The position numbers and the translations under genes are program-made. From positions 310,001-374,000 of the forward strand of contig NZ_ATYX01000007.1 in NCBI RefSeq assembly GCF_000427905.1: a stretch of 64,000 nucleotides of DNA. The letters run 5' to 3'. Positions 43,731 to 58,343 of the stretch are shown piece after piece. The DNA is from Thermocrispum agreste DSM 44070 (lineage in GTDB: Bacteria; Actinomycetota; Actinomycetes; Mycobacteriales; Pseudonocardiaceae). The notes below the pieces were generated by a model. It saw only the letters and a program-made list of their open reading frames with translations, was not told the origin of the DNA and did not search any database. Position 1 is the stretch's first letter. Each line of letters begins with the position of its first letter.

Positions 43731-44441
43731 TCAGAAGATGTCTGCCAGATCCCGATCGGCGACATCCTCGGGCGCAAGGTCATGCTCGGCCATGCCGCCT
43801 GCGCGCATGACACTGACCGAGTCGGCCACCGCCAGCGCCTGGTGCACGTTCTGCTCGACGAGGATGATGGTCCGATCGCCCCGGCGGAGCGTCGCCACGG
43901 TGGCCAACACCGCGTCGGCCAGCTTCGGGGAAAGGCCGACCGAAGGCTCGTCCAGCAGCAACACCCGTGGATTGGCCAGGAAAGCGCGGGCGATGGCCAC
44001 CTGCTGCTGTTGCCCCCCGGAAAGCGACCCGGCCAACGAGTGCCACGCCTCGTCCAGCACCGGGAACAGCTCCCGGGCGCTGGCCAGCCTCTCCTCGACC
44101 TCACCGCCGGTCGCCCGGCCGAGGCGGCAGGTGTTCCACATAGCGAGCCGGATGTTCTCCGCCACCGTCAGATCCGCGAACACCCCTCGCCCCTGAGGTA
44201 CCAGGACGACACCGGCGCGGGCGACGTCGCCCGCAGCCCGCCGGGTCAGGTCCGTGTCGCCGAAGGTGATCCGCCCGCTCGCCGGGCGCACGAGTCCGGC
44301 CAGCGTGCGCAACAGCGTCGACTTCCCCGCGCCGTTGTGGCCGAGCACCAAGCTGATCTCCCCCGGCCGGAACGATGCGCTCAACGCGTCCACCACGGTG
44401 CGATGGCCCAGCCGGACGGTCAGTGACTCGATGGTGAGCAC
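43731..44441 (-). CDS. livF: branched-chain amino acid-type ABC transporter ATP-binding protein
   Basis: A 236-residue ATPase of the LivF type. Walker A is GHNGAGKS, the signature LSGGQQQQ, Walker B VLLLDEPSVGLSP and the switch His is replaced in LVEQNV, which is normal for LivF. The GTG start has GAGGAG upstream. It is the last gene of the five-gene importer operon. Liv-type importers carry many amino acid-like, amide or aromatic compounds, so leucine is not assured as substrate. Confidence 0.92.
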   Translation of the reverse strand: MLTIESLTVRLGHRTVVDALSASFRPGEISLVLGHNGAGKSTLLRTLAGLVRPASGRITFGDTDLTRRAAGDVARAGVVLVPQGRGVFADLTVAENIRLAMWNTCRLGRATGGEVEERLASARELFPVLDEAWHSLAGSLSGGQQQQVAIARAFLANPRVLLLDEPSVGLSPKLADAVLATVATLRRGDRTIILVEQNVHQALAVADSVSVMRAGGMAEHDLAPEDVADRDLADIF

Positions 44442-44459
44442 GAATGTCTCCTCGTCGTC

Positions 44460-45176
44460 CTAGTCTCGCCGCCCGAAGTAGAGCGCGCGCACCACGTCGT
44501 TGCCGAACACCTCTTGCACCGTGCCGGTGGCCAGCGCCCGGCCCCGGTCCAGGAACACCACCTTGTCGGCCAGCTCCCTGACCAGCTGCAGGTTATGTTC
44601 GATCAGCACGATGACCAGGCCGCGCCGGCGCGCTTCGTCGACCACCTCGCAGAACAAGTCGTACTCGCGTGGCGCCAGGCCGGCGGCTTGCTCGTCGAGC
44701 AGCCACACGCGCCCCTCCATGGCGAGCATGCGCGCGATGGACACCGCCTTCTGCTGGCCGTAGCTGAGATTCACGGCAAGGTCTCGCCGGACATCGGACA
44801 GCCCGAGTCGGGCCAGAATCCGGTCGACCTTTCCGCGTACCTTGCGCGATCGGGTCGCGACGCGTCGCTCCGCCGCGAACAGCGTCTGGTCGTACACCGA
44901 GACGCCGCCGAACAGCCGGAGCTCCTGGAACGATCGGATCACGCCGAGCTTGGCGATGTGCCGTGCCGGTTTGCCGACCAGTTCCACGTCGCCGAGCCGG
45001 ATGCTGCCCCGGTCCGGGGTGATCAGCCCGGAGATGGCGTTGAACAGCGTCGTCTTGCCTGCGCCGTTCGGTCCGATCAGTGCGGTCACCGCACCGGGTT
45101 CCGCGGTCAGCGACACGTCGTCCAGCGCCACCAGGCCGCCGAAGGCGGCTCGCACCGTGTCGATCTGCAAGCTCAT
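44460..45176 (-). CDS. livG: branched-chain amino acid-type ABC transporter ATP-binding protein
   Basis: A 238-residue LivG-type ATPase. Walker A GPNGAGKT, signature LSYGQQKAVSIARML, Walker B VWLLDEQAAGLAP and the switch His in LIEHNLQLV are present. Walker B has DEQ where most family members have DEP; the catalytic Glu is kept. It lacks the extended C-terminus of many LivG proteins. The ATG overlaps the livM stop by four bases. Confidence 0.92.
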   Translation of the reverse strand: MSLQIDTVRAAFGGLVALDDVSLTAEPGAVTALIGPNGAGKTTLFNAISGLITPDRGSIRLGDVELVGKPARHIAKLGVIRSFQELRLFGGVSVYDQTLFAAERRVATRSRKVRGKVDRILARLGLSDVRRDLAVNLSYGQQKAVSIARMLAMEGRVWLLDEQAAGLAPREYDLFCEVVDEARRRGLVIVLIEHNLQLVRELADKVVFLDRGRALATGTVQEVFGNDVVRALYFGRRD

Positions 45177-46111
45177 GTCGGCACCCGTTCCGTGTCGATG
45201 CGGCTCGCCGAGGACGGCAGCGTCGACCGGTGGCGGCGACGCAGGGCGCGAAGCCCGCCACCGGTGAGGTAGCCACGAAGCACGACGACCGCGATGATCA
45301 ACAGTCCGTACACCAGTTGCTGCAGCGGCCCGACCGCGGTCGACGGCAGGTCGAGCAGGCTGATCAGCGGGATGACCGCGATGATCACGGCACTGCCGAC
45401 GACCGGGCCGATCGCCAGGCCGATGCCGCCGACGACCACGATGGCGACCAGCTTGATCGACATCGCGTAGTCGAATGTCGCCGAATTGACGAACCCGGTG
45501 TAGAAGGCGTACAGCACGCCGCCGAGCGCCGACACCGCCGCGCCCAGCATGATGGCCGCGTACTTGCCGGCGATCGGGCTGCGCCCCAGCGTCTGGGTGG
45601 CTATCGGGTCCTCCCGGATGGCGTAGAACAGCCTGCCGACCGATCCGCGGCGCAGGACCGCGGTCAAGCCGACCATCACCGCCACCACCGCCCAGATCAG
45701 CACGGTTTGGCCTGCCTGATCGGACAGCTCGGCACCCATGATGGTGGGAATGGGGATGCCGGGGATCCCGTCGGTTCCCTTGGTCACCGAGTACCAGCTG
45801 ATCAGCACCGTCGACACGATGATCTGGAAAGCCAGCGACGCCACCATGAAGTACTCTTCGCTGACCCGCAGGGCGGCGGAAGCAAGCACGAACGCCACGA
45901 CGACCGCCAGCGCGACGCCGGCCAGGGCGCAGACGACGAGCGAGCCGCCCACCTCGGGGGCGAGCAACGCCGTGACGTATGCGCCAATGCCCATGAACAC
46001 CGCCTGCGCGGCGGAGAAGACCCCCGCGAAGCCGGTGGTGATGTTCAACCCGATCGCGGCGATTGCGAAGATGCCGGTCAGCGCACCGACCGTGGTCAGG
46101 TAGTCGATCAT
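45173..46111 (-). CDS. livM: branched-chain amino acid-type ABC transporter permease
   Basis: A 312-residue LivM-type permease with about nine to ten membrane helices. Recognisable blocks: AAIGLNITTGFAGVFSAAQA, FMGIGAYVTALLAPEVGGS, SVGRLFYAIREDPIATQTLG and IVVVGGIGLAIGPVVGSAVI. It starts within the livH stop codon (ATGA). Confidence 0.92.
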   Translation of the reverse strand: MIDYLTTVGALTGIFAIAAIGLNITTGFAGVFSAAQAVFMGIGAYVTALLAPEVGGSLVVCALAGVALAVVVAFVLASAALRVSEEYFMVASLAFQIIVSTVLISWYSVTKGTDGIPGIPIPTIMGAELSDQAGQTVLIWAVVAVMVGLTAVLRRGSVGRLFYAIREDPIATQTLGRSPIAGKYAAIMLGAAVSALGGVLYAFYTGFVNSATFDYAMSIKLVAIVVVGGIGLAIGPVVGSAVIIAVIPLISLLDLPSTAVGPLQQLVYGLLIIAVVVLRGYLTGGGLRALRRRHRSTLPSSASRIDTERVPT

Positions 46112-47031
46112 CGCACCAGCTCCACCGGGGGCTCGGAACTCGTCTGCGGTGTCGGTTTCGCCCGCTTCGGCCGGCCTTTGCCGAACATCGCCAGCCCTCG
46201 CGGTGCGATCAGGATGATCAGCAGGAACACGGTGAACACCACGCCTTCTTGCCATGCCGGCGGCAGCTGCCAGAGCGCGACGCCCTGGATGACACCGAAG
46301 ATCAGCGCGCCCGCGGCGGCCCCGGTGATGCTGCCGACCCCGCCGATGATCACCGTGGCGAAGGCGATCAACAGCGGAACGTCACCCATGGTCGGGTACG
46401 CACCGAAGATGTAGGCGGCGAAAATCCCCGCGGGCACGGACAGCAGGGCGGCGATGACGAACGCGACCCGCTCGGCGCGCCGCCGCGGCATGCCCCAGAC
46501 GTCGGCCATCTCCCCGTTGCACGCCGCGGCTCGCATCAACGAGCCGGTCATGGTCCGCCGGAGGAACGTCCGGGTCAGCAGGTAACACACGATCGCGGCC
46601 CCGAACGCCATCAGGTTGATCTTCACCAGGTGCAAGCCGGCGACGTCGATCGTGGAGTCCAACGACGTCGGCGGATGCGTCGCGTTCGCCGAGAACACCA
46701 AGGTCAACGCCGAGCTGCCGACGATCCACAGCCCGAACGAGGCCAAAAACAGCGGGAAGAGATCGGCTTGCCGCTTGGCCACCGGGCGATACAGCAGGTC
46801 GTACGCGGCCATCGTGAAGGCCAGCGACACGACCAGCGTTGCTGCCACCGCGAGCACGAACCCGTGGGGCTCGACCGCGGTGAACGTCAAAGCGCACAAG
46901 CTGATGTTCGCGCCGTGCGCGATGTGCAGGATGCCGGTGACGTCGAGGATGAGCGACATCCCGATGGCGATCATGACGTAGATGCCTCCGACGAGCAGCC
47001 CGCCGATGGCCAGCTGAACGAACTCGTGCAT
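46108..47031 (-). CDS. livH: branched-chain amino acid-type ABC transporter permease
   Basis: A 307-residue LivH-type permease. LAIGGLLVGGIYVMIAIGMS, GILHIAHGANISLCALTFTA, RAAACNGEMADVWGMPRRRA and ATVIIGGVGSITGAAAGALI are family blocks; it has about eight membrane helices and a basic C-terminal tail. It follows the binding-protein gene by 20 bases. Confidence 0.92.
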   Translation of the reverse strand: MHEFVQLAIGGLLVGGIYVMIAIGMSLILDVTGILHIAHGANISLCALTFTAVEPHGFVLAVAATLVVSLAFTMAAYDLLYRPVAKRQADLFPLFLASFGLWIVGSSALTLVFSANATHPPTSLDSTIDVAGLHLVKINLMAFGAAIVCYLLTRTFLRRTMTGSLMRAAACNGEMADVWGMPRRRAERVAFVIAALLSVPAGIFAAYIFGAYPTMGDVPLLIAFATVIIGGVGSITGAAAGALIFGVIQGVALWQLPPAWQEGVVFTVFLLIILIAPRGLAMFGKGRPKRAKPTPQTSSEPPVELVR

Positions 47032-47051
47032 GCCCGTACCCCCGTCCGCGC

Positions 47052-48212
47052 TCAGCCGGTCACCTCGACGGTGGTCACGGGTGTGAAGGCACCGTCTTTG
47101 ATCTTGTAGATGGAGATGGGCGCCTGCAGGGTGTGGTCGGGCAGCAGTTGCAGCTTCCCACCGACCGCGTCGATGCTGCCTTGACGGGCGAACTTCTCGT
47201 TGAGGTTGGGCCCGTCGACCTCCTTGCCTTCGGTGACGAGCTGCTTGGCCGCGTTGGCCCACATCAGCACGCCGTTGCAGTAGTTGGCCGCTCCGACGAT
47301 GACCCCCTCGCCCGGTTTCAGTCCGGTGGTGCGCAAGAAGCCCTTCGTCATGGGGTCCTGCGACGCGAAGTCCATCGCCTGCAGCGTGAACAGGGACCCG
47401 TTGGCTTCCTTCAGGTCGAGCACCGCAGGCACCGGGAACGACGACGAGGCGATGATCTGCGTGGTCACACCCGCACTGCGCAGCTGCCGGACGAGCACCG
47501 CCTGCGGGTCGCCGGAGAACACCATGAAGATGACGTCGGGGTCGAACGCCTTGATCTTGTCGACTTGTGCGGAGAACGACGTCGCCGACAGCGTCAACGG
47601 CAATGTGGCGAGTGTGCGGCCGTTTCCTCGCCACGCCTTGCGGACGACGTCGACCGCGCCTTTGCCGACGATGTCGTCCTGGTAGACCAGCATCGCCTTC
47701 TTCGCATCGGGCATCTGCTCCTTCGCGTACGGCAAGCTGGCGCCGAGTTCGGTGCTGAGGAACGGCAGGGTGTTCCACACCCACTCCTTGTTGGCCAGCG
47801 TCGGGCTGAGCGCCCCGCCGTTGATCAACGGGACCCGGTGGCGCTCGGCGAGCGGGATGAGCGCCGTGGTGACGGAGCTGTAGGCGCTGAACACCGCCGT
47901 TGCGTGGTCGACTCTGGCCAGCTGCGTGAAGCCGGCGATCCCCTTCGCCGTCTCCGCGCCGGTGTCGACGTACTTCACCGTGACCGGATGGGGCAGATCC
48001 TTGCTTTCGTTGACTAGCTCGACGCAGCCGTCGATGCCCTTGCGGTATGCCATGCCGAACGAAGCCGCAGGCCCGCTGAGTGGCAACGCCGCGCCGATGA
48101 CGTACTCGTCCCCGCCGGCACCGGATCCGCCCCCGCCGCAAGCCGCTGCCGGCCAGGTCAGACCGAGCGCAACCAGCGGAGCCAACAGCAGGCTCAACCG
48201 CTTCTTCCTCAT
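47052..48212 (-). CDS. livK: Liv-type periplasmic-binding lipoprotein of the ABC importer
   Basis: A 386-residue family 4 substrate-binding protein. The leader MRKKRLSLLLAPLVALGLTW ends in lipobox AAAC, followed by a Gly-rich linker. The mature fold shows YVIGAALPLSGPAASFGMAY, ATAVFSAYSSVTTALIPLAE, INGGALSPTLAN and MLVYQDDIVGKGAVDVVRKA. The binding pocket cannot be assigned; this family ranges from amino acids to amides and aromatic acids. AAAGGGTGGG precedes the ATG. It is the first gene of the operon; two operator-like sites (48311, 48378) lie just upstream. Confidence 0.9.
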   Translation of the reverse strand: MRKKRLSLLLAPLVALGLTWPAAACGGGGSGAGGDEYVIGAALPLSGPAASFGMAYRKGIDGCVELVNESKDLPHPVTVKYVDTGAETAKGIAGFTQLARVDHATAVFSAYSSVTTALIPLAERHRVPLINGGALSPTLANKEWVWNTLPFLSTELGASLPYAKEQMPDAKKAMLVYQDDIVGKGAVDVVRKAWRGNGRTLATLPLTLSATSFSAQVDKIKAFDPDVIFMVFSGDPQAVLVRQLRSAGVTTQIIASSSFPVPAVLDLKEANGSLFTLQAMDFASQDPMTKGFLRTTGLKPGEGVIVGAANYCNGVLMWANAAKQLVTEGKEVDGPNLNEKFARQGSIDAVGGKLQLLPDHTLQAPISIYKIKDGAFTPVTTVEVTG

Positions 48213-48310
48213 CCGACCCACCCTTTCGTCGATGTCCGGAGACTGCGGGAGGTGAGGGGCACCCGTGGGCGCAGGCCGTGGCTCCGGCCCGCTCCCCCGC
48301 AGTCGTAGCA

Positions 48311-48328
48311 TAGCGATCGAACGCTTTG
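48311..48328. promoter_or_regulatory. operator site A of the TetR regulon
   Basis: TAGCGATCGAACGCTTTG, in the gap between the livK and cyclase genes, about 100 bases before livK. It shares the TAGYGA start and CGCTTTG end with the sites at 52536 and 56819, but its centre is the most divergent of the five. Confidence 0.55.
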
Positions 48329-48377
48329 TTTGAGTGTGTGCGATCACACCGGCCGCGTCAATGGTCGACGCGAAACT

Positions 48378-48395
48378 GAGCGATCGCTTGCTAAT
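48378..48395. promoter_or_regulatory. operator site B of the TetR regulon
   Basis: GAGCGATCGCTTGCTAAT, 62 bases before the cyclase ATG. GCGATCGCTTGCT is identical to the reverse complement of site E, and differs from site C at one base. Confidence 0.7.
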
Positions 48396-48456
48396 TTTGT
48401 TCGACGCGGCTACCGTCTCACCGTTGTCTGAAGCGGCCGCCGGGGAGGGACCGGAG

Positions 48457-49464
48457 ATGCACGACGACAAGGACTTTCCGACCTATGCGGAGCTTCGCGC
48501 CCGCACCGACGCCCCTGCCGGCTCGGCGTGGGGAGTGTTCGGGGCGGACGACGAACTCGGCACCTTGAACCACCTCACCCCGGAGCGCGTGCGCGCAGCC
48601 GCGGCTGCCGTGCGCACCGGCGAGGTCATCAACCTGAACCTTCCACTGGAAACGTTCGATCCGCCGGTGAGCCCATACCGCAAGCGGCTGCGGCACCGCG
48701 TCTACGCCAACTACGCGTACCACCGAGACGAGTACCTGGACAGCTTCTATCCGCAGGCCAGCACACAGATCGACGGGTTCAGGCACATCGGGCACCCGGT
48801 GTTCGGGTTCTACAACGGAGCGGATCCCGACCGGTTCCTGCCCGGAGACCCCTACCTGGGTATCAACCGATTCACCGAGCACGGCATCGTCGGCCGTGGT
48901 GTGCTGGTCGACGTCGACCGATACCGCAGACAGCAGGGCAGGCCGATCAACCACGGCGCGGCGGAGGCCATCCCGATCACCGACATCGCAGCCGCGGCCG
49001 AAGCCCAGCACGTCGACTTCCGGCCGGGCGACATCCTGCTGGTCAGAACCGGATGGCTGCATCGTCACCTGCACGAACTGACCCCGGCGGAACGCAGGAT
49101 CGAGAAGGAGACCCTGCGCATCTCCGGGTTGCTGGCCAGCGAGGAGACGGTGAGCTGGCTCTGGGACCACCGGTTCGCCATGGTGGCGGCCGACAACTTC
49201 AGTGTGGAGGCCTTCCCCGCGCCGGACGATTCTCCGTTCGTCTCCGAGGCGGAACGCAACGGCCGGGTTCCGCGCACTTACGCGGGCCTGATGCACAACG
49301 TCCTCCTCCCGCTGCTGGGCCTCCCCCTCGGCGAGCTGTGGGATCTGGACCGGTTGGCCGAACGATGCGCCGCGGACGGCCGCTGGGAGTGCCTCGTCGT
49401 GGCTTGCCCGCTGAATCTGACCGGCGGATCGGGGTCCCCGGCCAATGCCGTCGCGATCCGGTGA
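48457..49464 (+). CDS. cyclase-family (PF04199) metal-dependent hydrolase
   Basis: A 335-residue protein of the kynurenine formamidase-like cyclase family. The substrate/metal region QASTQIDGFRHIGHPVFGFYNG matches the QxSTQWDxxxH branch of the family instead of the HxGTHxD form. GVLVDVDRYR, FRPGDILLVRTGWLHRH, VAADNFSVEAFPAPD and MHNVLLPLLGLPLGELWDLD are further family blocks. Such enzymes hydrolyse formamides, cyclic amides or lactone-like bonds. GGGAGGGA precedes the ATG at 48457. It is divergent from the Liv importer and seven bases upstream of the M20 hydrolase. Confidence 0.85.
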   Translation: MHDDKDFPTYAELRARTDAPAGSAWGVFGADDELGTLNHLTPERVRAAAAAVRTGEVINLNLPLETFDPPVSPYRKRLRHRVYANYAYHRDEYLDSFYPQASTQIDGFRHIGHPVFGFYNGADPDRFLPGDPYLGINRFTEHGIVGRGVLVDVDRYRRQQGRPINHGAAEAIPITDIAAAAEAQHVDFRPGDILLVRTGWLHRHLHELTPAERRIEKETLRISGLLASEETVSWLWDHRFAMVAADNFSVEAFPAPDDSPFVSEAERNGRVPRTYAGLMHNVLLPLLGLPLGELWDLDRLAERCAADGRWECLVVACPLNLTGGSGSPANAVAIR

Positions 49465-49470
49465 GGTGCC

Positions 49471-50679
49471 ATGACCATCTACGACGACGCCCGGCAACTC
49501 GAGGACGAGCTGGCAGCGTTTCGTGCGGAGTTGCACGCCGATCCCGAAATCGGCCTGCAGCTGCCGCGCACCCAGGCTCGGGTGCTGCGCGAACTCGAGC
49601 CGCTGGGACTGGAGATCTCCGTCGGCCGAGCCACCACGTCGGTCGTGGCGGTCCTGCGTGGTGGCGCGCGCGACGAACGGCAGCCTCGCGCCGTGCTCCT
49701 GCGGGCCGACATGGACGCCCTACCCGTCCGGGAACGCACCGGCCTCGACTTCGCGTCCGAGAACGGGGCCATGCACGCGTGCGGCCATGATCTGCACACC
49801 GCGTCGCTGATCGGGGCGGCACGTCTGTTGCACCACCACCGAGATCGCCTGGCCGGCGACGTGGTGTTCATGTTCCAGCCCGGCGAGGAGGGCTACGATG
49901 GCGCGGGCGTGATGGTGAACGAGGGTGTCCTGGACGCTGCGGGGTACCGGGTATGCGCGGCTTTTGCCATCCACGTGCTTTCGGCCGGGCTGCCCAACGG
50001 CGTCGTCAGCACGCGATCGGGCCCCGTGATGTCGTCCTCGCAACGGCTGCTGGTGCGGGTCGATGGCCAAGGTGGGCACGGGTCGATGCCGCATCGCGCG
50101 AAGGATCCGATCACGGCAGCCGCGGAAATGGTCACCTCGCTGCAGAGCACGGTGACCCGAAGCTTCGACGTCTTCGATCCCGTGGTGGTGACGGTCGGGC
50201 AGTTCCAAGCAGGCACCAGACACAACGTGATCCCCGATCACGCCGAGTTCGCAGCGACGCTGCGCACGTTCTCCACGGAGAACTCGGCGAAGATCCGCGC
50301 CGACTTGGAGCGGACCCTTCGTGGTGTCGCCGACGCGCACGACGTCGGGGTGGACGTTCGCTTCGAAGAGGAGACGTTGCTGACGGTCAACGACGAATTC
50401 GAAGCCGGATTCGCCGCCGACGTCGCGCGATCGGTGCTGGGTGAGCACAGCTATCGCCCGATGCCTCACCCGCTGGCGGCATCGGAGGATTTCTCCCGCG
50501 TGCTCACCCACGTGCCCGGGGCCTTCCTCACGCTGGGCGCCACGCCACCCGGAATGGACCCTGCGACGGCACCCAACAACCACAGCGCCTACGCCGTCTT
50601 CGATCCCGCGGTGCTCCCCAAGGCGGCCGCACTGTACGCGGAACTGGCGCTGAGGCGGCTCGAGCACGAGTCGGCCTGA
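49471..50679 (+). CDS. M20-family N-acyl-amino-acid amidohydrolase (hippuricase/ILR1-like)
   Basis: A 402-residue zinc amidohydrolase. Metal ligands are visible in HACGHDLHTA (Cys104, His106), GEEGYDGAG (Glu139/140), AIHVLS (His168) and the C-terminal NNHSAYAVFD. The dimerisation insert (VDGQGGHGSMPHRAKDPITA) is complete. The family cleaves N-acyl amino acids, such as hippurate or auxin conjugates, into a carboxylic acid and an amino acid. In context it would release the acid that the CoA ligase at 51001 activates. Confidence 0.9.
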   Translation: MTIYDDARQLEDELAAFRAELHADPEIGLQLPRTQARVLRELEPLGLEISVGRATTSVVAVLRGGARDERQPRAVLLRADMDALPVRERTGLDFASENGAMHACGHDLHTASLIGAARLLHHHRDRLAGDVVFMFQPGEEGYDGAGVMVNEGVLDAAGYRVCAAFAIHVLSAGLPNGVVSTRSGPVMSSSQRLLVRVDGQGGHGSMPHRAKDPITAAAEMVTSLQSTVTRSFDVFDPVVVTVGQFQAGTRHNVIPDHAEFAATLRTFSTENSAKIRADLERTLRGVADAHDVGVDVRFEEETLLTVNDEFEAGFAADVARSVLGEHSYRPMPHPLAASEDFSRVLTHVPGAFLTLGATPPGMDPATAPNNHSAYAVFDPAVLPKAAALYAELALRRLEHESA

Positions 50680-50776
50680 CCTCCGGGCCGTCGGCCTGAC
50701 CTCCGGGCCCGCTGGCCGCACTTCGGCGGCATTAATCGTCCGGCCGCTCGAGCCGGGAAGCGCAGCCTGCCAGGCT

Positions 50777-50815
50777 GCGGCCACGGCCGCGACTTGTCGG
50801 CCCGGCCGTGGCCGC
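50777..50815 (+). terminator. 13-bp-stem hairpin after the amidohydrolase gene
   Basis: GCGGCCACGGCCG (50777-50789) pairs perfectly with CGGCCGTGGCCGC (50803-50815) around a 13-base loop. Confidence 0.65.
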
Positions 50816-50890
50816 TCGGGCCTTCATTGCTGGCCTGCCACCGGCGCTTCGCGCCTGCTCACCATCGCCGGCGACGGCTTCCCGGAAACA

Positions 50891-50936
50891 GCAGAACCTC
50901 CGGTCGCCGGCCCGAGGACAACGCCGGAGGTTCTGC
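50891..50936 (-). terminator. 13-bp-stem hairpin after the CoA ligase gene
   Basis: GCAGAACCTCCGG (50891-50903) pairs perfectly with CCGGAGGTTCTGC (50924-50936). It lies 65 bases past the ligase stop on the minus strand. Confidence 0.65.
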
Positions 50937-51000
50937 CGGGTGGAAGTCCGCCCGCACGGGCCGGTCGATCGACGATCGCCGAGGGCCGGCCCGGCGATCG

Positions 51001-52524
51001 TCACTGCGATGCGGTCCCCGTCCGCTCGGCCAGCAGAGCCGACCGGCGCAGCTTCCCGGCCTCGTCGCGCGGAACGCGGTCGACCAGCTCGTAGGTCTTC
51101 GGCAGCTTGTAGGACGCGAGCTGATCGCGCATGAAGGTGCGCAGCTGGTCCTCCGTGACGGACGCCCCGGTGCGGAGCTGGACGATCGCGTGCACCGCCT
51201 GGCCCCAGTCCGGGTGGGGCAGCCCGATGACCGCCGCGTCGACGACCACGGGATGCTGCAGCAGCGCCCCCTCCACTTCGGCCGGATAGATGTTCGCGCC
51301 CCCGGAGAGGATCAGGTCGACGCGCCGGTCGGCAAGGTAGAGATAGCCGTCCTCGTCGACCCGTCCGTAGTCCCCCACCGTGACGAACCCGTCCTCGGTC
51401 GACGGGGCGGCCGGGCTGCCGCGGTACTCGTAGGTCGGCTCGGCGCAGTGCGGTCGCATGTAGATCATGCCGACCTCGCCGACCGGCACTTCGCGCTGCT
51501 CGTCGTCCAGGATCCGCAGATCGCAGTTGAGCGGCCGCCCGACACTGCCCTCGTGCCGCAGCCAGTCGGTGCCGGTGATCGCGGTCGCGCCGACGGCCTC
51601 GGTGGCTCCGTACAACTCGTTGATGTGTTCCGGGCCGAGCAGATCGATCCACTGCTTCTTCAGCCACGGCGGGCACGGCGCGGCACCGTGGAACAGGGAC
51701 TCCATGCTCGACCAGTTGCGCTCGGCGATGCCATCCAGCCGGATCATCCTGGTCATCATGGTGGGCACCACGAACATCAGGTTGACGCGGTAGCGCTCGA
51801 CGCAGTCGACCGCCAGCTCCGGCCGGAAACGCTCCAGCAGCACCACGTGGTGCCCGAAGAACAAGCCCCAGTATCCCCAGCCGAACGGGGCGTTGTGGTA
51901 GAGCGGCCCGCACACCAACTGCGTCTGGTCCGGGCGGAACCCGATGGTCACGGCGACACCGTGCAGCGGATGGCCGGGAACTGTCCCGCCGACCGCACCC
52001 GGATTCCCCCACGGCAACGGGTCCACGATCAACTTCGGCACCCCGGTCGAGCCGCCGGAGCACACCGCCTTGCCCGGCTGCGGGTCGGCCAGCTGCCAGT
52101 GCCGGGCCCGCTCGGCCACGACCTCGCCCGGACTGACACAGCGGTGGTCGCGCACCGCCTCCAGGGACACCACCACGTCCGGATCAGCTAACCGGAGAAT
52201 CTGATCCCGCTCTCGCGCGGGCATGTCGGCGCGCACGGGGACCACGCACGCCCCCAGCTTCCATGCCCCGATCGTGGACAGTACGTGCTCGACCGAGTTC
52301 CGCAGCATGACAACGACCAGGCTGCGCGGTCCGATGCCGCGAGCGGCAAGACCCGCGGCGAAGTCGTCGCTGCGCCTGTCCAGTTCCGACCAGGTGAGCT
52401 GCACCGCCGGCCCGGTCTGCGGCACGAAGGTCAACGCGGGGGCGTCCGGCCGGGACGCTCCCAACTGCTTGATCTGTTCGCCGTACGACACGTAATCGTC
52501 GAACGTGAGCGCTGGTCGCCCCAT
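51001..52524 (-). CDS. AMP-forming acyl-CoA ligase (bile acid/cyclic carboxylate-CoA ligase type)
   Basis: A 507-residue ligase. The phosphate loop is CSGGSTGVPK (155-164), the adenylate motif ELYGATEAVG, and the catalytic lysine lies in DEAGKLRRSALL at the end. The SGGSTGxPK form and GPLYHNAPFGWGYWGLFFGH resemble ligases acting on bile acids and other cyclic carboxylates, such as BaiB. It would convert the acid released by the amidohydrolase, or a side-chain acid, to a CoA thioester. It is divergent from the TetR gene with operator C between them. Confidence 0.87.
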   Translation of the reverse strand: MGRPALTFDDYVSYGEQIKQLGASRPDAPALTFVPQTGPAVQLTWSELDRRSDDFAAGLAARGIGPRSLVVVMLRNSVEHVLSTIGAWKLGACVVPVRADMPARERDQILRLADPDVVVSLEAVRDHRCVSPGEVVAERARHWQLADPQPGKAVCSGGSTGVPKLIVDPLPWGNPGAVGGTVPGHPLHGVAVTIGFRPDQTQLVCGPLYHNAPFGWGYWGLFFGHHVVLLERFRPELAVDCVERYRVNLMFVVPTMMTRMIRLDGIAERNWSSMESLFHGAAPCPPWLKKQWIDLLGPEHINELYGATEAVGATAITGTDWLRHEGSVGRPLNCDLRILDDEQREVPVGEVGMIYMRPHCAEPTYEYRGSPAAPSTEDGFVTVGDYGRVDEDGYLYLADRRVDLILSGGANIYPAEVEGALLQHPVVVDAAVIGLPHPDWGQAVHAIVQLRTGASVTEDQLRTFMRDQLASYKLPKTYELVDRVPRDEAGKLRRSALLAERTGTASQ

Positions 52525-52535
52525 GACGCCTCCCT

Positions 52536-52553
52536 TAGCGAGCGCTTGCTATT
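52536..52553. promoter_or_regulatory. operator site C of the TetR regulon
   Basis: TAGCGAGCGCTTGCTATT lies in the 49-bp gap between the ligase and TetR starts, so a bound repressor would cover both promoters. The core AGCGAG-CG-CTTGCT is nearly palindromic and fits the published KstR2 consensus AnCAAGnnCTTGnT with one mismatch. Confidence 0.75.
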
Positions 52554-52573
52554 GAACCTGATATCATTACGAA

Positions 52574-53158
52574 ATGCCTCGACCTAGCCGTGTTCACGAG
52601 ATCGTGGCCGCAGCCACCAAGCTGTTCAGCGAACGGGGTTTTCTGGGCACGTCGGTACGCGCCATCGCCGAGGCAGCGGGAATGCACTCCGGCGGGCTGT
52701 ATTCCCATTTCCCCTCCAAAGAGGCGTTGCTGTACCACATCGTCAGCGAGACGCTGCAGCGCCAGCTGGATGCGGTCGCGGAAGTCTGCAGGAGCGACCT
52801 CGACCCGGCCGCCAAGTTCCGCGCCGCCTTTCTCACCCACGTATCGACCAACTTCGAGATCGGTGGCGCATCGACCGCTCGGCTGTTCCTGCTCGACTGG
52901 CGATATCTGACCGGCAAGGAACTCGAGCACGTGCTCCAGTTGCGGCGCGCATACGAAAAGCTGTGGGACGATTTGCTGGAGGAAGGCGTCGCGGCCGGTG
53001 TTTTCCGGAAAGACATGGACACGCACATGACCCGCCTGGTGCCGATCTCGGTGGCGAACTGGGCGATCATGTGGTTCGACCCGAACGGTCCGCGCTCGGT
53101 GGAAGAAGTCTTCGGCAAAGTGGCGGACGAAATGTTGCAAGGATTTCTCGCCCGCTGA
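52574..53158 (+). CDS. TetR-family repressor, KstR2-like
   Basis: A 194-residue TetR protein. The helix-turn-helix is IVAAATKLFSERGFLGTSVR AIAEAAGMHSGGLYSHFPSK (residues 10-50). The C-terminal half (KLWDDLLEEGVAAGVFRKDM, WAIMWFDPNGPRSVEEVFGK) resembles mycobacterial KstR2, which senses a steroid-ring CoA ester. Its ligand here is probably the CoA thioester made by the divergent ligase. Five KstR2-like operators in the surrounding promoters, including its own, suggest it controls the whole 43.7-58.3 kb island. The ribosome binding site is weak (ATTACGAA before the ATG), and the transcript may be leaderless or nearly so. Confidence 0.87.
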   Translation: MPRPSRVHEIVAAATKLFSERGFLGTSVRAIAEAAGMHSGGLYSHFPSKEALLYHIVSETLQRQLDAVAEVCRSDLDPAAKFRAAFLTHVSTNFEIGGASTARLFLLDWRYLTGKELEHVLQLRRAYEKLWDDLLEEGVAAGVFRKDMDTHMTRLVPISVANWAIMWFDPNGPRSVEEVFGKVADEMLQGFLAR

Positions 53159-53180
53159 TTGTCGTCCATCGCCGAGCACC

Positions 53181-54353
53181 TCAGAAATGGTCGAACATCC
53201 ATGGGGTGCCGCAGGCGAACACAGTGCCGATCCGGTCGAGGGTGCCTGCTCGCTCGGTGTGCAGCTCGCCGAGGACTTGCGCCTCGGCAGCGCCCAGCCT
53301 GCCGGTGTACAGCGCAGCGAAGCCCCGCTCCGTGACGGCTGCTTCGGGGGCTTCCGTGGTCCACTCGGCACGGCATCGGCCGTCGCTGACAGTGAGCCGT
53401 AACGCCCGTCCCGGCGCCGTCCGGCGGACGGCCAGGACGAGCTCCACGGTCACGTCCGGGGGATACCCGCGTGCTGTCAGCGCGGCCGGGTAATCGATGA
53501 TGCGCAGCATCCACGGGTACGCCCAGTCGACGGTGGGCGGCACGTCGAAGAACATGGACAGGCCGTCGCAGGGCGAGCCGAACCAGGTCAGGTCCTCGCC
53601 CGGCGACCCGGCCCGTGCCAGCGCTCGGAGCAAGGCGTTCGCCGACGAACGAGACGTCCAGACGATCTCCCGGGCCCGCACACGATGGCGGAAGGTGAGT
53701 TCTCCCCGGGGCGCACTCGGCTGGTCCCACATGGCGTAGCCGGTGACCGCACCGTCTCTGACGGCCACCACGGCGAACGCGTCGCCCGAGCGGACCGACG
53801 GCAGGATGTGCCCCTGCCACCAGCCCGCGGAGCGCACGATGAGGCCGTTGCTCCGACGGGCGAACTCCTCGTACACCTCGGCGAGCGCGTCGACGTCCGC
53901 GGTCTCGAACCAGCGGACGGAATCGATCTCCGAGCCTGTCCGCAAGGCGGCAGGCGGGGCCACGAAACGGTAGCGATGACCCCCGACCTCGAACCCGGCG
54001 CGCCGGTAGGGCGCCAGTGCCGTCGGGACGAGCGTGGCGACGGCTGCGCCGGATCGGGCGTGGTCCGCCAGCACCGACTCCAGCAAATAGCCCATCACTC
54101 CGGCGCTGCGATGGGCCAGATCGACCATGACCGACGAGATCGCGACACCGGGAACCGGGCGGCCGCCGAACCACTGCCCCGCCGGGCGAGCCAGCATCGC
54201 TGCGACCGGCTGCCCGGCACGTTCGAGCACGTGACCGTGCGCCAGCCAGAGATCGAAGTTGATCGACGCGGAGAAACACTGGCGCCGCAGCCCGGCGACG
54301 AATCCTTCGTCCTCGGCGCGGAAACGCCGCACCACTCGCTCCTCGCTACCCAT
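53181..54353 (-). CDS. Eis-family GNAT N-acetyltransferase
   Basis: A 390-residue protein with two GNAT-like domains and an SCP2-like C-terminal domain, as in mycobacterial Eis. VAISSVMVDLAHRSAGVMGY LLESVLADHARSG holds the acetyl-CoA-binding turn, LVPTALAPYRRAGFEVGG and YRRAGFE are family blocks. The chain ends in TPWMFDHF, keeping the C-terminal Phe whose carboxylate is catalytic in Eis. Known members acetylate amines on aminoglycosides or peptides. Its place as last gene of a catabolic operon, overlapping the SDR by eight bases, is unusual and suggests an amine-bearing substrate or intermediate. Confidence 0.82.
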   Translation of the reverse strand: MGSEERVVRRFRAEDEGFVAGLRRQCFSASINFDLWLAHGHVLERAGQPVAAMLARPAGQWFGGRPVPGVAISSVMVDLAHRSAGVMGYLLESVLADHARSGAAVATLVPTALAPYRRAGFEVGGHRYRFVAPPAALRTGSEIDSVRWFETADVDALAEVYEEFARRSNGLIVRSAGWWQGHILPSVRSGDAFAVVAVRDGAVTGYAMWDQPSAPRGELTFRHRVRAREIVWTSRSSANALLRALARAGSPGEDLTWFGSPCDGLSMFFDVPPTVDWAYPWMLRIIDYPAALTARGYPPDVTVELVLAVRRTAPGRALRLTVSDGRCRAEWTTEAPEAAVTERGFAALYTGRLGAAEAQVLGELHTERAGTLDRIGTVFACGTPWMFDHF

Positions 54354-55275
54354 CGGCCATCGCCGCCTCGTCGACGGATTCCAGGAACTCGATTGCCGTC
54401 GGCCACCGTGGCAGGTCCGCACCGACCCGGCGTTCCAGATCCGCCACCGTCCACCGGCCACTCGCGGTGAAGCGCCGCAGGACGCTCGGTGGCGCGAACA
54501 ATTGCACGGTGTTGCCCGCCACGTAGAAGACCTGCCCGGTCGCGCGGCAAGAAGGCGTCGCCAGCCAGCCGACCACCGGGGACACGTTCTCCGGCGCCCA
54601 GAAATCGAAGCCGTCGGTCGACGACGACTGGTTGACATGGACGGCGGCGGGCATGGCCGCCACCGCCAACTCGGTGCGCGCCGACGGAGCGATGGCGTTC
54701 GACCGGACGCCGATCTTGCTGCCCTCCAGCGCCAGCACCGAGGACAGCGCCACGATGCCCAGTTTGGCCGCCGTGTAGTTGCCTTGGCCGAAATTGGGCA
54801 TCAGGCCACCGATGGAGCTGGTGTGCACGATCGACGCCCGCACAGGTTCGCCGTTCTCCTTGGCGCGCTGTCGCCAATACGCCATGGCGTGTGCGGACGG
54901 CGCCGCATGTCCCTTCAGGTTCACTCGGACGACGTCGTCCCACTCCCGTTCCGACATGCGCGCCATGGTGCGGTCGCGCACGATCCCGGCGTTGTTGACC
55001 AGAACGTCCAAGCGGCCGAACCGTTCCACGCACGTCGCGATCAGGTCCCGTGCGTCGGACCAGTCGGAGATGTCACCGTGATGGCTGGCCGCCGGATACC
55101 CTTCCGCCGCGATCTCATCGGCCACTTGGTCCGCCAACCACGTGCCGTCGTCAGTGCGCCCCGTGTCGTTGACCAGCACGGCGGCGCCAAGGCTTGCGAG
55201 GTGGCGCGCATGGCATCGCCCGAGTCCCCCACCTCCGCCGGTCACGATCGCAGCAAGCCCGTCGAGAGGTTTCAT
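54346..55275 (-). CDS. SDR oxidoreductase, 3-hydroxyacyl-CoA dehydrogenase type
   Basis: A 309-residue SDR. The cofactor loop is TGGGGGLGRCHARHL, NNAG is in VLVNNAGIVRD, and the catalytic set is HTSSIGG ... YTAAK. The layout (NDTGRTDDG after beta-2, GHAAPSAHAMAYWR, a C-terminal extension of about 60 residues) matches the dehydrogenase part of MFE-2/steroid 17-beta-type enzymes that oxidise 3-hydroxyacyl-CoA. The residues after beta-2 suggest NAD. It overlaps the DUF35 gene (ATGA) and the Eis-like gene. Confidence 0.87.
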   Translation of the reverse strand: MKPLDGLAAIVTGGGGGLGRCHARHLASLGAAVLVNDTGRTDDGTWLADQVADEIAAEGYPAASHHGDISDWSDARDLIATCVERFGRLDVLVNNAGIVRDRTMARMSEREWDDVVRVNLKGHAAPSAHAMAYWRQRAKENGEPVRASIVHTSSIGGLMPNFGQGNYTAAKLGIVALSSVLALEGSKIGVRSNAIAPSARTELAVAAMPAAVHVNQSSSTDGFDFWAPENVSPVVGWLATPSCRATGQVFYVAGNTVQLFAPPSVLRRFTASGRWTVADLERRVGADLPRWPTAIEFLESVDEAAMADG

Positions 55276-55655
55276 GGCGCCTCCCGCCGGAACACCAGCA
55301 GCGGCCGCTCCCCCTCCTGCCGAGGGGGCGACCAGCTCGCGACAAGCCGCTCGCCGATCGCCGCGTCCTGCGGCACATGAGCCAGCACCCGTGGTCCTTC
55401 GTCCAGGTCGACCAAGCCGACGCCGTACGGCGGTGGTATGTCCGGACGGACCGGGAGGTGGACGGTGACGCACGAATACACGGTGCCCTGACCGGAGGCC
55501 TCGATCCAGGAGAGATCCCCGGAATCGCACCCCAGACAGAACGGCCGGGGATACAGCTGGTGATAGCCACAGCGTGCGCACCGCTGGACCACCAGCAGGC
55601 CGGCCGCAGCGGCGGCCCAGAACTCGCGCGTCGTGGGGTCGAGAACGTCAGTCAT
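55272..55655 (-). CDS. DUF35 OB-fold protein with rubredoxin-like zinc ribbon
   Basis: A 127-residue protein. The N-terminal zinc ribbon is CARCGYHQLYPRPFCLGC; the OB-fold follows (DLSWIEASGQGTVYSCVTVH, YGVGLVDLDEGPRVLAHV). DUF35 proteins bind CoA thioesters and partner thiolase-like proteins; with Ltp2-type partners they make a retro-aldolase in steroid side-chain degradation. Its start overlaps the thiolase-like gene by eight bases, which supports a stoichiometric complex. Confidence 0.88.
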   Translation of the reverse strand: MTDVLDPTTREFWAAAAAGLLVVQRCARCGYHQLYPRPFCLGCDSGDLSWIEASGQGTVYSCVTVHLPVRPDIPPPYGVGLVDLDEGPRVLAHVPQDAAIGERLVASWSPPRQEGERPLLVFRREAP

Positions 55656-56799
55656 TGGTCAGCACCACCGTCGAGCTGTAGGAGGACAGACCGCCCAGGC
55701 CGTTGACCAGAGCACGCCGCGGCACCGGGGTGACCTGACGGTCCCCCGCCTCGCCGCGTAGCTGGCGCACCGCCTCGATCACCAGGAAGATCCCGAACGC
55801 GCCGGGGTGGGCGTACGACAACCCGCCGCCCGACGTCATCGCGGGCAGCTTGCCGCCTGGCTTGAAGTGGCCGCGCGCGAACATTTCGCCGCCCTCGCCC
55901 TTCGCGCAGAACCCAAGGTCCTCCATCTGCAGGATGGGAGTGATGGTGAAGGCGTCGTACGGCTGGAACAGGTCGATGTCCTCCGGCCCGACACCTGCCA
56001 TCTCGTAGGCACGCTTGCCGGATTCCACGGCGGGTGTGCTCGTCAGATCTCGTCGCTGGTGGGCATGCCAGGTCGCGTGGCTCTCGCCCCAGCCCAGGAT
56101 GGTCACGGGCGGCCGCTTGGCGTTCCGGACCCGATCGCGCGTCGTGACGATCACCACGCCACCGCCGTCGGTGATCAAGCAGCAGTCCAGCTTCTTGATC
56201 GGCCCGCAGATGCGTTCGGAGACCATCACGTCGGCCACGGTCAACGGGTCGCGCCGCCATGCCTTGGGGTTCAGCCGCGCCCATTCCCGCGCGGTGACCG
56301 CGACCGACGCCAGCTGTTCTTCCGTGGTGCCGTGTTCGTGCATGTGCCGGGCGGTGACCAGTGCATAGTGACCGATAGGGACCGGCAGCCCGGCGGGTTG
56401 ATCGAACTGCGCGGTAAGGGACTCCGGCGGCCACGGCGCGATCACGTGCGTACGCGATCGCTTACGCAGGCTGCGTTGCCTGGAGGCGTATGCGAGCAGC
56501 GCCACGGTGCAGTGACCGGCCGCGATCGCCGCCATGGCGTGCCCGACGAACCCTTCCCACGATCCGCCGCCGAGGTCGGAGGAGTCCGCATAGCTGGGCT
56601 CGATCCCCAGGTATTCGCCCAACAGGACCGACCCTTCCTCGCCGAGATAGTTCACGAACAGCCCGTCGACGTCAGCCCTGGTCAAACCCGCTTCGTCGAG
56701 CGCAGCCATGGCGGCGAGCGCGATCATGGACGGCTCGGACTGGTCGGTGACCTTGCCGAGCGGTGTCTCGGCCACGCCCGCGATGCAGAACTCGCGCAT
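55648..56799 (-). CDS. thiolase-fold lipid-transfer (Ltp2-like) protein lacking the nucleophilic cysteine
   Basis: A 383-residue thiolase-superfamily protein. In the region where thiolases carry the nucleophilic Cys it reads DLGGGSWEGFVGHAMAAI, so Ser80 or Gly occupies the place. The His motif is kept in GGGLSYAHPGAFG, while the C-terminal Cys-Gly-Gly motif is replaced by NGLGGLSSYSSTVVL. The length fits the SCP-x/Ltp group. Without the Cys it probably does not do thiolysis; with DUF35 it may cleave a beta-hydroxy-CoA by retro-aldol reaction. It is the first gene of its operon, behind operator D. Confidence 0.85.
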   Translation of the reverse strand: MREFCIAGVAETPLGKVTDQSEPSMIALAAMAALDEAGLTRADVDGLFVNYLGEEGSVLLGEYLGIEPSYADSSDLGGGSWEGFVGHAMAAIAAGHCTVALLAYASRQRSLRKRSRTHVIAPWPPESLTAQFDQPAGLPVPIGHYALVTARHMHEHGTTEEQLASVAVTAREWARLNPKAWRRDPLTVADVMVSERICGPIKKLDCCLITDGGGVVIVTTRDRVRNAKRPPVTILGWGESHATWHAHQRRDLTSTPAVESGKRAYEMAGVGPEDIDLFQPYDAFTITPILQMEDLGFCAKGEGGEMFARGHFKPGGKLPAMTSGGGLSYAHPGAFGIFLVIEAVRQLRGEAGDRQVTPVPRRALVNGLGGLSSYSSTVVLTND

Positions 56800-56818
56800 G
56801 ACGTCCTTCCATCTTTCT

Positions 56819-56836
56819 TAGTGAACGCTCGCTTTG
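56819..56836. promoter_or_regulatory. operator site D of the TetR regulon
   Basis: TAGTGAACGCTCGCTTTG lies in the 53-bp gap upstream of the thiolase-like gene and after the permease stop. It matches the other sites as TAGYGANCGCTYGCT and indicates that this operon has its own regulated promoter. Confidence 0.65.
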
Positions 56837-56852
56837 TAATATTCCACGACGA

Positions 56853-58262
56853 TCATGCACTGTCAACGCGACGACGACGGGCCAACGAGAGGAACACGTA
56901 GACGACCGACACCACGACCAGCGCAAGGAGGCTCAATGCCACCTGGACGCGGGTCTCGTACTCGATGAACATCACAACGTCGATGCCCAGCAGCGCGACG
57001 CCACACAGGATCGCCAGCCACGGGTGTCCCCACATGCGGACCGGCAGTTGCGCGATCTGCTCGGCAGGCGTTCGCATCCGCATGCCGACCTGGGAAGCAC
57101 AGACGAAGCCGTAGACGATCAGCGCCAGCGCCCCAACCGAGTTCAGGACGAACGCGAACGCCTCGTCCGGAGCGAACCAGTTCACCGCCGCGCCGAGAAG
57201 CCCACCCGAACCGCTCAGCAGCACTCCTATCCACGGGACGCCGCGCGCGTTCCTGCGGTCGATCCCCGCCGGCGCGTAGCCATTGCGCGCCAACCGGAAC
57301 AACGTCTGCGAGCAGGCGTAGATGGACGCGTTGACGATCGACAGCACCGCGACGAGCAGGACAGCGTCCATGATTTGCACCGAGTACGGGATGCCGAAAC
57401 GGTCGAAGGCCGCCGCGAACGGTGACGAATCGACCGGAATCTCCGCGAACGGCAGGACGAGAAGCAGCGCGACGACGGAGCCCACGAAGAACAAGACGAT
57501 CCGGATGACCGCAAGCCGCGTGGTACGCACCACCGCGCGACCGGGGTCCTCCGACTCACGAGAAGCGATCACGGCGATCTCCGTGCCGACGAACGACAGC
57601 ACCGCGATCGCCATGCCCTGGACAACGGGGGCGATCCCGTTCGGCAACAGCGGAGCGTTCAGCAGGTTCGTCAGCCCCACCCCGGTCGACCCCGGCAACA
57701 GCCCGAGCACGTAGCCGACGGCCCCGACACCGAGCACGAGGATGGTGGCGATCTTGATGCCGGCCAGCAGAAACTCGGCCTCCCCGAATCCGCGTGCCGA
57801 ATACAGGTTCAGCCCGACGAACACCGCCATCACGCCGAGCGAGCACAGCCAGTTCGGGACACCGAGCCATCCGCCGATCACCTGGCCGGCGACGACCGCC
57901 TCGAACGCGATGATCGCAACGAACAGGTACCAGTACAGCCATCCGACGGCGAAGGCCGCCCAGCCGCCCACCCCGACGCGGGCGTAGTCGACAAACGTCC
58001 CCAGCTCAGGCCGCGCGGTGGTCATCTCACCGAGCATCAGCATGACGAAGTAGACGATGACCCCGCCGAGGAAGAAGGACAGCACGGCTCCCGCGCCCGC
58101 CGATCGCACGACTTCGCCGACCCCCACGAACAGCGAGGCGCCGATACATCCGCCGATGGCGAGCAAGGTGACGTGACGGCTCTTGAGTCGACCCTTGCGT
58201 GGAACCTCCGCCTGCAACTCCCCCCGATTCGGCACCGCAGGTTCTGACACCGCTGCTGACAT
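56853..58262 (-). CDS. APC-superfamily amino acid/amine permease (GABA permease type)
   Basis: A 469-residue permease with about twelve membrane helices. KSRHVTLLAIGGCIGASLFV GVGEVV is the conserved substrate-binding start of the AAT family, and GEMTTARPELGTFVDYARV and SFVGTEIAVIASRESEDPGR are further signatures (the last contains the TEIxxIxxxEsxDP motif). The start at 58262 has GGAGG eight bases upstream; the in-frame codon at 58292 is less likely. It imports an amino acid, amine or related compound by proton symport. Operator E lies 64 bases upstream. Confidence 0.9.
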   Translation of the reverse strand: MSAAVSEPAVPNRGELQAEVPRKGRLKSRHVTLLAIGGCIGASLFVGVGEVVRSAGAGAVLSFFLGGVIVYFVMLMLGEMTTARPELGTFVDYARVGVGGWAAFAVGWLYWYLFVAIIAFEAVVAGQVIGGWLGVPNWLCSLGVMAVFVGLNLYSARGFGEAEFLLAGIKIATILVLGVGAVGYVLGLLPGSTGVGLTNLLNAPLLPNGIAPVVQGMAIAVLSFVGTEIAVIASRESEDPGRAVVRTTRLAVIRIVLFFVGSVVALLLVLPFAEIPVDSSPFAAAFDRFGIPYSVQIMDAVLLVAVLSIVNASIYACSQTLFRLARNGYAPAGIDRRNARGVPWIGVLLSGSGGLLGAAVNWFAPDEAFAFVLNSVGALALIVYGFVCASQVGMRMRTPAEQIAQLPVRMWGHPWLAILCGVALLGIDVVMFIEYETRVQVALSLLALVVVSVVYVFLSLARRRRVDSA

Positions 58263-58325
58263 CGCAAACCTCCGAATCGTGTCGGGGATCACCCCGATGC
58301 CAGCACGCTAACGTCAGACACGAAG

Positions 58326-58343
58326 AAAAGCAAGCGATCGCAC
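58326..58343. promoter_or_regulatory. operator site E of the TetR regulon
   Basis: AAAAGCAAGCGATCGCAC; the reverse complement GTGCGATCGCTTGCTTTT aligns with sites B and C. It lies upstream of the APC permease gene. Confidence 0.7.

Follow-up and report, generated by a model that had tools for sequence, protein, structure and literature searches.

Two enzymes that adopt the thiolase fold without its nucleophilic Cys, and that are bound to a DUF35 protein, have been characterised as aldolases: the steroid aldolase Ltp2 with ChsH2 (TcLtp2, 6ok1) and the bile acid aldolase Sal with Shy (CtSal, 9myr). Their catalytic bases are Tyr294 and Tyr302 and their acids Tyr344 and Cys304, for TcLtp2 and CtSal respectively, the base being backed by mutation in CtSal and reported in TcLtp2 (PMC12329534). 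IpfD, encoded with IpfE on plasmid pIBU218, is needed for growth on ibuprofen and has been assigned the propionyl-CoA-releasing step. In the HBC operon of Mycolicibacterium neoaurum, the aldolase Atf1 is encoded together with the stand-alone DUF35 protein ChsH4, a reductase that comes after the aldolase in the pathway, and a TetR-type regulator (PMC10398937).

The locus described here lies in a window of 64,000 nt (the whole stretch of DNA that was analysed) from Thermocrispum agreste DSM 44070, a soil-type actinobacterium, and codes for a Cys-less thiolase-like protein (TLP) and a DUF35 protein (Table 1). We estimate at about 60% the probability that the two proteins act together as a C-C lyase of the thiolase fold, splitting a 3-hydroxyacyl-CoA in a retro-aldol reaction, within a TetR-controlled catabolic island.

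Table 1. Island genes, operator-like sites and TLP active-site codons, with their positions in the window.
Feature	Position	Strand	Basis
ABC ATPase, left edge of conserved island	43731..44441	(-)	
ABC ATPase	44460..45176	(-)	
ABC permease, LivM-like	45173..46255	(-)	
ABC solute-binding protein (SBP), Peripla_BP_6, start codon inferred	47052..48212	(-)	
Operator-like site, SBP/cyclase divergent gap	48312..48328	(+)	
Second operator-like site, SBP/cyclase divergent gap	48379-48392		
PF04199 'cyclase'-family hydrolase, start codon inferred	48457..49464	(+)	
M20 amidohydrolase	49471..50679	(+)	
Acyl-CoA ligase (FadD)	51001..52524	(-)	
Palindrome AGCGAGCGYTYRCT, exact, FadD/TetR divergent gap	52537..52550	(+)	
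TetR, predicted regulator of island	52574..53158	(+)	
Eis-like GNAT acetyltransferase with SCP2_2 domain	53181..54353	(-)	
SDR, (3R)-hydroxyacyl-CoA dehydrogenase / HSD17B4-like	54346..55275	(-)	
Stand-alone DUF35, 127 aa: C4 zinc ribbon and OB fold, no MaoC domain	55272..55655	(-)	
TLP, PRK06158-like, 383 aa	55648..56799	(-)	
His331 codon (AHP), column of TcLtp2 Tyr344 / CtSal Gln352 / thiolase GHP His	55807..55809	(-)	alignment
Tyr281 codon (YDAF), column of TcLtp2 Tyr294 / CtSal Tyr302 catalytic base	55957..55959	(-)	alignment
Gly78 codon, thiolase nucleophile (Cys) column	56566..56568	(-)	alignment
Palindrome AGCGAGCGYTYRCT, exact, upstream of TLP	56820..56833	(-)	
Amino-acid/GABA-permease-like transporter, right edge of island	56853..58292	(-)	
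Operator-like site, 2 mismatches, upstream of permease	58326..58342	(-)	

Active site, partner and family of TLP

TLP is matched by the Pfam model Thiolase_C_1 (4e-59), and the top among all models is PRK06158 (NF004811), at 419.8 bits for a cutoff of 421. Foldseek ranked the matches to its AlphaFold2 model (pLDDT 89, pTM 0.91) in the order 4u4e, 9myr and 6ok1, and the functionally characterised structures nearest to TLP are the two DUF35-bound aldolases, CtSal and TcLtp2.

TLP was aligned with TcLtp2, CtSal, 4u4e, 7yvy and three Cys-bearing thiolases of its own genome. A first-pass annotation had singled out a nucleophile region, GGGSWEG, and a catalytic His region, GGGLSYAHPGAFG; both are present as quoted, and the alignment places Gly78 in the column of the Cys and His331 at the GHP-type His. 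Column 78 is Cys in all four Cys-bearing thiolases compared and Gly in TLP, which thus lacks the nucleophile by which thiolases are recognised, and column 281, His in the same four (HDxF), is Tyr in TLP (Y281-D-A-F). Column 331 holds the GHP His in Cys-bearing enzymes, His331 in TLP, Tyr in TcLtp2 and Gln in CtSal, in agreement with the published equivalence of Tyr344 and Gln352 (PMC12329534). The YDxF motif, which is decisive, had gone unmentioned in the first-pass annotation, and the His that it took as thiolase-like is the residue lost in both characterised aldolases. None of the six Cys of TLP (5, 97, 198, 206, 207 and 298) falls in any of the three catalytic columns compared, nor is there one in the C-terminal loop. 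The loss of a C-terminal Cys motif is not diagnostic, because 7yvy, an archaeal thiolase that does bear the nucleophilic Cys, likewise lacks the C-terminal CxG Cys. Since the position of the base is kept and both known acid solutions are missing, His331 is the obvious remaining candidate for the catalytic acid of TLP.

The DUF35 protein is matched by zf-ChsH2 and OB_ChsH2_C (Pfam) and its zinc ribbon is canonical (C26-x2-C29-x10-C40-x2-C43). The overlap of the two genes was correctly noted from the start, with exact coordinates: it extends over 8 nt, from the TLP stop at 55648 to the DUF35 start at 55655. A DUF35 gene lies on the same strand within 300 nt in 78 of the 80 TLP-family loci sampled, and we infer that TLP and DUF35 form a complex.

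The family is widespread, and a genome scan recovered at least 592 confirmed relatives. Gly78, Tyr281 and His331 are invariant in all 96 family sequences examined, Tyr281 being partly selected for by scan patterns that held YD[SA]F or DCC, and Gly78 and His331 lying outside these patterns; pattern-free relatives obtained by whole-genome protein searches again carry the three residues. The active-site glycines are also invariant throughout the family. Of the 96 members, 59 have Ala, 34 Ser and 3 His at the third position of YDxF. In a tree whose long branches make the deep joins uncertain, the Cys-less proteins all stand apart from the Cys-bearing thiolases (99% SH-aLRT) and the TLP family is split from Ltp2, CtSal and IpfD (97% SH-aLRT); TLP clusters with proteins of G186 (a genome of the same family but another genus), Cryobacterium and Actinomadura (100%), and 4u4e and other close relatives fall in its clade. 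The invariant residues and the neighbouring DUF35 gene suggest that the TLP clade may represent a third acid/base set, Tyr/His, on a shared Cys-less scaffold. No published or tested function for this clade was found in the open literature, outside which most subscription papers lie. Three proteins inside the His331 clade (L056, L067 and L096) combine YDHF, the motif of Ltp2, with the HP His and are possible intermediates.

The catabolic island and its putative regulation

The island covers 14.5 kb (43731-58292) and includes two importers, a second ABC permease domain being found in the adjoining frame of the open reading frame at 46108-48141. The solved structures nearest to the M20 protein are YxeP, an IAA-amino acid hydrolase and an N-acyl-glutamine aminoacylase, and the nearest to FadD is the bile acid-CoA ligase 4lgc. 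The SDR gene overlaps the DUF35 gene by 4 nt and is itself overlapped by the Eis-like gene. The presence of an Eis-like GNAT within a catabolic operon is a side observation; the putative enzyme could N-acetylate the substrate, M20 later removing the acetyl group.

G186 is collinear with the window over 43.7 to 58.3 kb, including the ABC importer genes, with identities of 82% (cyclase), 73% (M20), 74% (FadD), 73% (TetR), 57% (Eis), 70% (SDR), 71% (DUF35), 84% (TLP) and 67% (permease), and no collinear genes were found in it past either edge of the island, which looks horizontally mobile or selectively kept. The identity of 84% between TLP orthologues of different genera and a dN/dS of about 0.12, the minimum among the seven island genes measured, rule out a pseudogene or decayed gene. 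No close TLP homologue (E <= 1e-60) was found in the same-genus genome sampled (G001). Cryobacterium Y57 retains TLP-DUF35 and homologues of FadD (42%) and M20 (56%), together with an additional M20 gene and an ABC importer of the amino-acid type. The family neighbourhoods were also considered for a fatty-acid beta-oxidation context: among 50 loci with full flanks, counted by reference-sequence search only and without a control set, a CoA-activating enzyme was found in 37, an acyl-CoA dehydrogenase in 30, a hydratase in 25, an SDR within 7 kb in 24 and a 3-hydroxyacyl-CoA dehydrogenase in 3.

Five operator-like palindromic sites lie at the island's four promoter regions, and elsewhere in the window there is one other, weak match (21089). 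For AGCGAGCGYTYRCT, 0.35 matches with at most one mismatch are expected by chance. Related sites are present at the corresponding gaps in G186, and the simple reading is a single TetR regulon with AGCGAGCGYTYRCT as candidate operator.

Proposed reaction and competing explanations

The absence of the nucleophile, the DUF35 partner and the proximity to DUF35-bound aldolases among characterised structures make retro-aldol cleavage the best reading of the sequence, as the first-pass annotation had proposed; its assignment of TLP to the Ltp2-ChsH2 type, on the other hand, is rejected. TLP scores 241 bits with the Ltp2 model PRK07855, below the cutoff of 469, it carries YDAF and His331, its DUF35 partner has no MaoC domain, and it belongs to another clade. 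What favours retro-aldolysis is the missing nucleophile together with the replacement of the HDxF His by Tyr, a change common to Ltp2, Sal and IpfD. In the proposed mechanism, Tyr281 would deprotonate the beta-hydroxyl of a 3-hydroxyacyl-CoA, the C(alpha)-C(beta) bond would be cleaved, releasing an aldehyde or a ketone and leaving the enolate of an acyl-CoA, and the enolate would be protonated by His331, the former thiolase GHP His, in a substrate pocket that DUF35 would complete. No covalent acyl-enzyme would be formed, because Gly sits in place of the nucleophilic Cys. The cleavage would come after import, amide hydrolysis (by M20 and/or the cyclase) and CoA activation by FadD; we infer the reaction, this order of steps and the roles of Tyr and His from the comparisons above. 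The island shows no recognisable hydratase or acyl-CoA dehydrogenase, so the beta-hydroxyl would have to be present in the substrate already or be made outside the island.

Besides this gap, there are other findings that speak against a retro-aldol reaction: the His at column 331 differs from the residues of both characterised aldolases, and, as the main caveat, the operon SDR resembles (3R)-hydroxyacyl-CoA dehydrogenases, which would yield a 3-keto substrate. Both fit a retro-Claisen reaction, in which the SDR makes a 3-ketoacyl-CoA that TLP-DUF35 cleaves through non-covalent attack by CoA or water, assisted by the retained thiolase His, and the recurrence of an SDR at 24 of the 50 family loci points the same way. 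We nevertheless hold this reaction to be unlikely, given that TLP lacks the nucleophilic Cys and that the HDxF His of Cys-bearing thiolases is replaced by Tyr in 96 of 96 members, as in aldolases. Moreover, the SDR could equally act on an aldehyde, a ketone or another hydroxyl, and the Atf1 pathway does have a post-aldolase reductase.

Other chemistries are still less probable. Like Cys-less ketosynthase-type domains, TLP might decarboxylate a malonyl-type CoA ester or carry out other enolate chemistry, in which the enolate would be stabilised by His331 and Tyr281. Such a reaction would accord with TbSLP, a close fold match to TLP that is also Cys-less and that slowly decarboxylates malonyl-CoA (kcat 0.005 s-1, as cited in PMC12329534). 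It is improbable here, as CtSal has no such activity (PMC12329534) and the island contains no recognisable malonyl-CoA or carboxylase gene. With its transporters, hydrolases, CoA ligase and TetR, the island has a catabolic look, which places a shade lower the chances of a forward aldol or Claisen-type carboligation, or of a C-acylation, in a biosynthetic pathway. An acetyltransferase is present in the island and DUF35/thiolase-fold complexes such as PhlABC do work synthetically, but PhlC uses a catalytic Cys that TLP does not have. Loss of the nucleophile could also mean that TLP is a catalytically inert scaffold or regulatory subunit; this is the most improbable explanation of all, in view of the invariance of Tyr281, His331 and the active-site glycines across the family and the lowest dN/dS among the genes measured, and TLP was the only thiolase-like protein seen to be encoded in the island.

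For the preferred retro-aldol pathway, the importers, the two amide/cyclic-amide-type hydrolases (by family), the CoA ligase and TLP-DUF35 suggest uptake of a conjugate from which an acid is freed, activated and cut, and the island is probably dedicated to the degradation of an amide-containing compound. The match of M20 to N-acyl-glutamine aminoacylase offers a lead only, namely a beta-hydroxy acid freed from a glutamine conjugate, for which a literature search found nothing useful. A steroid substrate is unlikely because no Ltp2- or Sal-type paralogue was found in the genome of the window, in which the TLP paralogues are Cys/HDCF thiolases (L002-L004) and one weak partial match (L005).

More tentatively, the large, cross-phylum family annotated as 'acetyl-CoA acetyltransferase/thiolase' may form a third class of thiolase-fold, DUF35-dependent aldolases (Tyr/His), in which TLP would cut an imported, hydrolysed and CoA-activated amide without involvement of steroids. 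If so, hundreds of genes now called thiolases (at least 592 hits in the scan) would code for C-C lyases that use another acid/base set, pathway annotation would be corrected in four phyla (Pseudomonadota, Actinomycetota, Bacillota and Chloroflexota), and new non-steroid aldolase biocatalysts would become available. The switch of the fold from thiolysis to retro-aldol cleavage would also be open to study, with Tyr/Tyr, Tyr/Cys and Tyr/His sets on a Cys-less background.

Comparison with known thiolase-fold systems

The archaeal DUF35-type thiolases 7yvy (Pyrococcus) and 6esq (Methanothermococcus) share with TLP the fold and the GHP His but possess the nucleophilic Cys, and 7yvy has HDAF where TLP has YDAF. 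The top match in both sequence and fold is 4u4e, a putative thiolase of Sphaerobacter thermophilus from structural genomics (363 bits; 46% identity in the structural alignment), which belongs to the same clade and has Gly at column 78, YDSF and THP, and differs by Ser in YDxF where TLP has Ala; no function or paper for it was found in the open literature.

Ltp2-ChsH2 resembles TLP-DUF35 by its Cys-less thiolase fold, DUF35 and base Tyr, but combines YDHF with a second catalytic Tyr, Tyr344, and ChsH2 is a MaoC-DUF35 fusion. In Sal-Shy, too, a DUF35 subunit accompanies a Cys-less thiolase fold, and the nucleophile-column Gly and the base Tyr of YDxx are shared, whereas the acid Cys304 (YDCY) and Gln352 of Sal correspond to Ala283 and His331 in TLP. 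Shy differs from the DUF35 partner of TLP, which has a C4 ribbon and lacks MaoC, by the Cys3His1 type of its zinc site and by its MaoC domain. Membership of TLP in the Sal group is therefore rejected on motifs, zinc ribbon and tree, as is membership in the Ltp2 group on motifs, model score and tree.

Two plasmids provided side observations. Separately from ipfDE, pIBU218 carries a clear Ltp2-type protein (L022:939-2503; YDHF; PRK07855 583 bits, above cutoff) accompanied by DUF35, enoyl-CoA hydratase and CaiB genes. Plasmid pDK3 of Rhodococcus sp. DK17 (L019:3435-11146) bears two thiolase-like genes in a setting reminiscent of an ipf-like cluster, with Rieske dioxygenase, OB-fold, two acyl-CoA dehydrogenase and AMP-ligase genes as neighbours.

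IpfD-IpfE shares with the TLP system YDAF, the nucleophile-column Gly, a stand-alone DUF35 and a neighbouring CoA ligase; IpfD differs by Tyr at column 331, a separate clade and a ring dioxygenase in its cluster. Since IpfD combines Gly with YDAF, an Ala in third place of YDxF need not prevent a lyase from working. Atf1-ChsH4, likened to TLP by description and not by sequence, is a genetic precedent in which a stand-alone DUF35 occurs beside an aldolase and a TetR-type gene, although its substrate is a steroid and it is described as close to sal1. In its organisation, the TLP system is thus nearest to IpfD-IpfE and Atf1-ChsH4.
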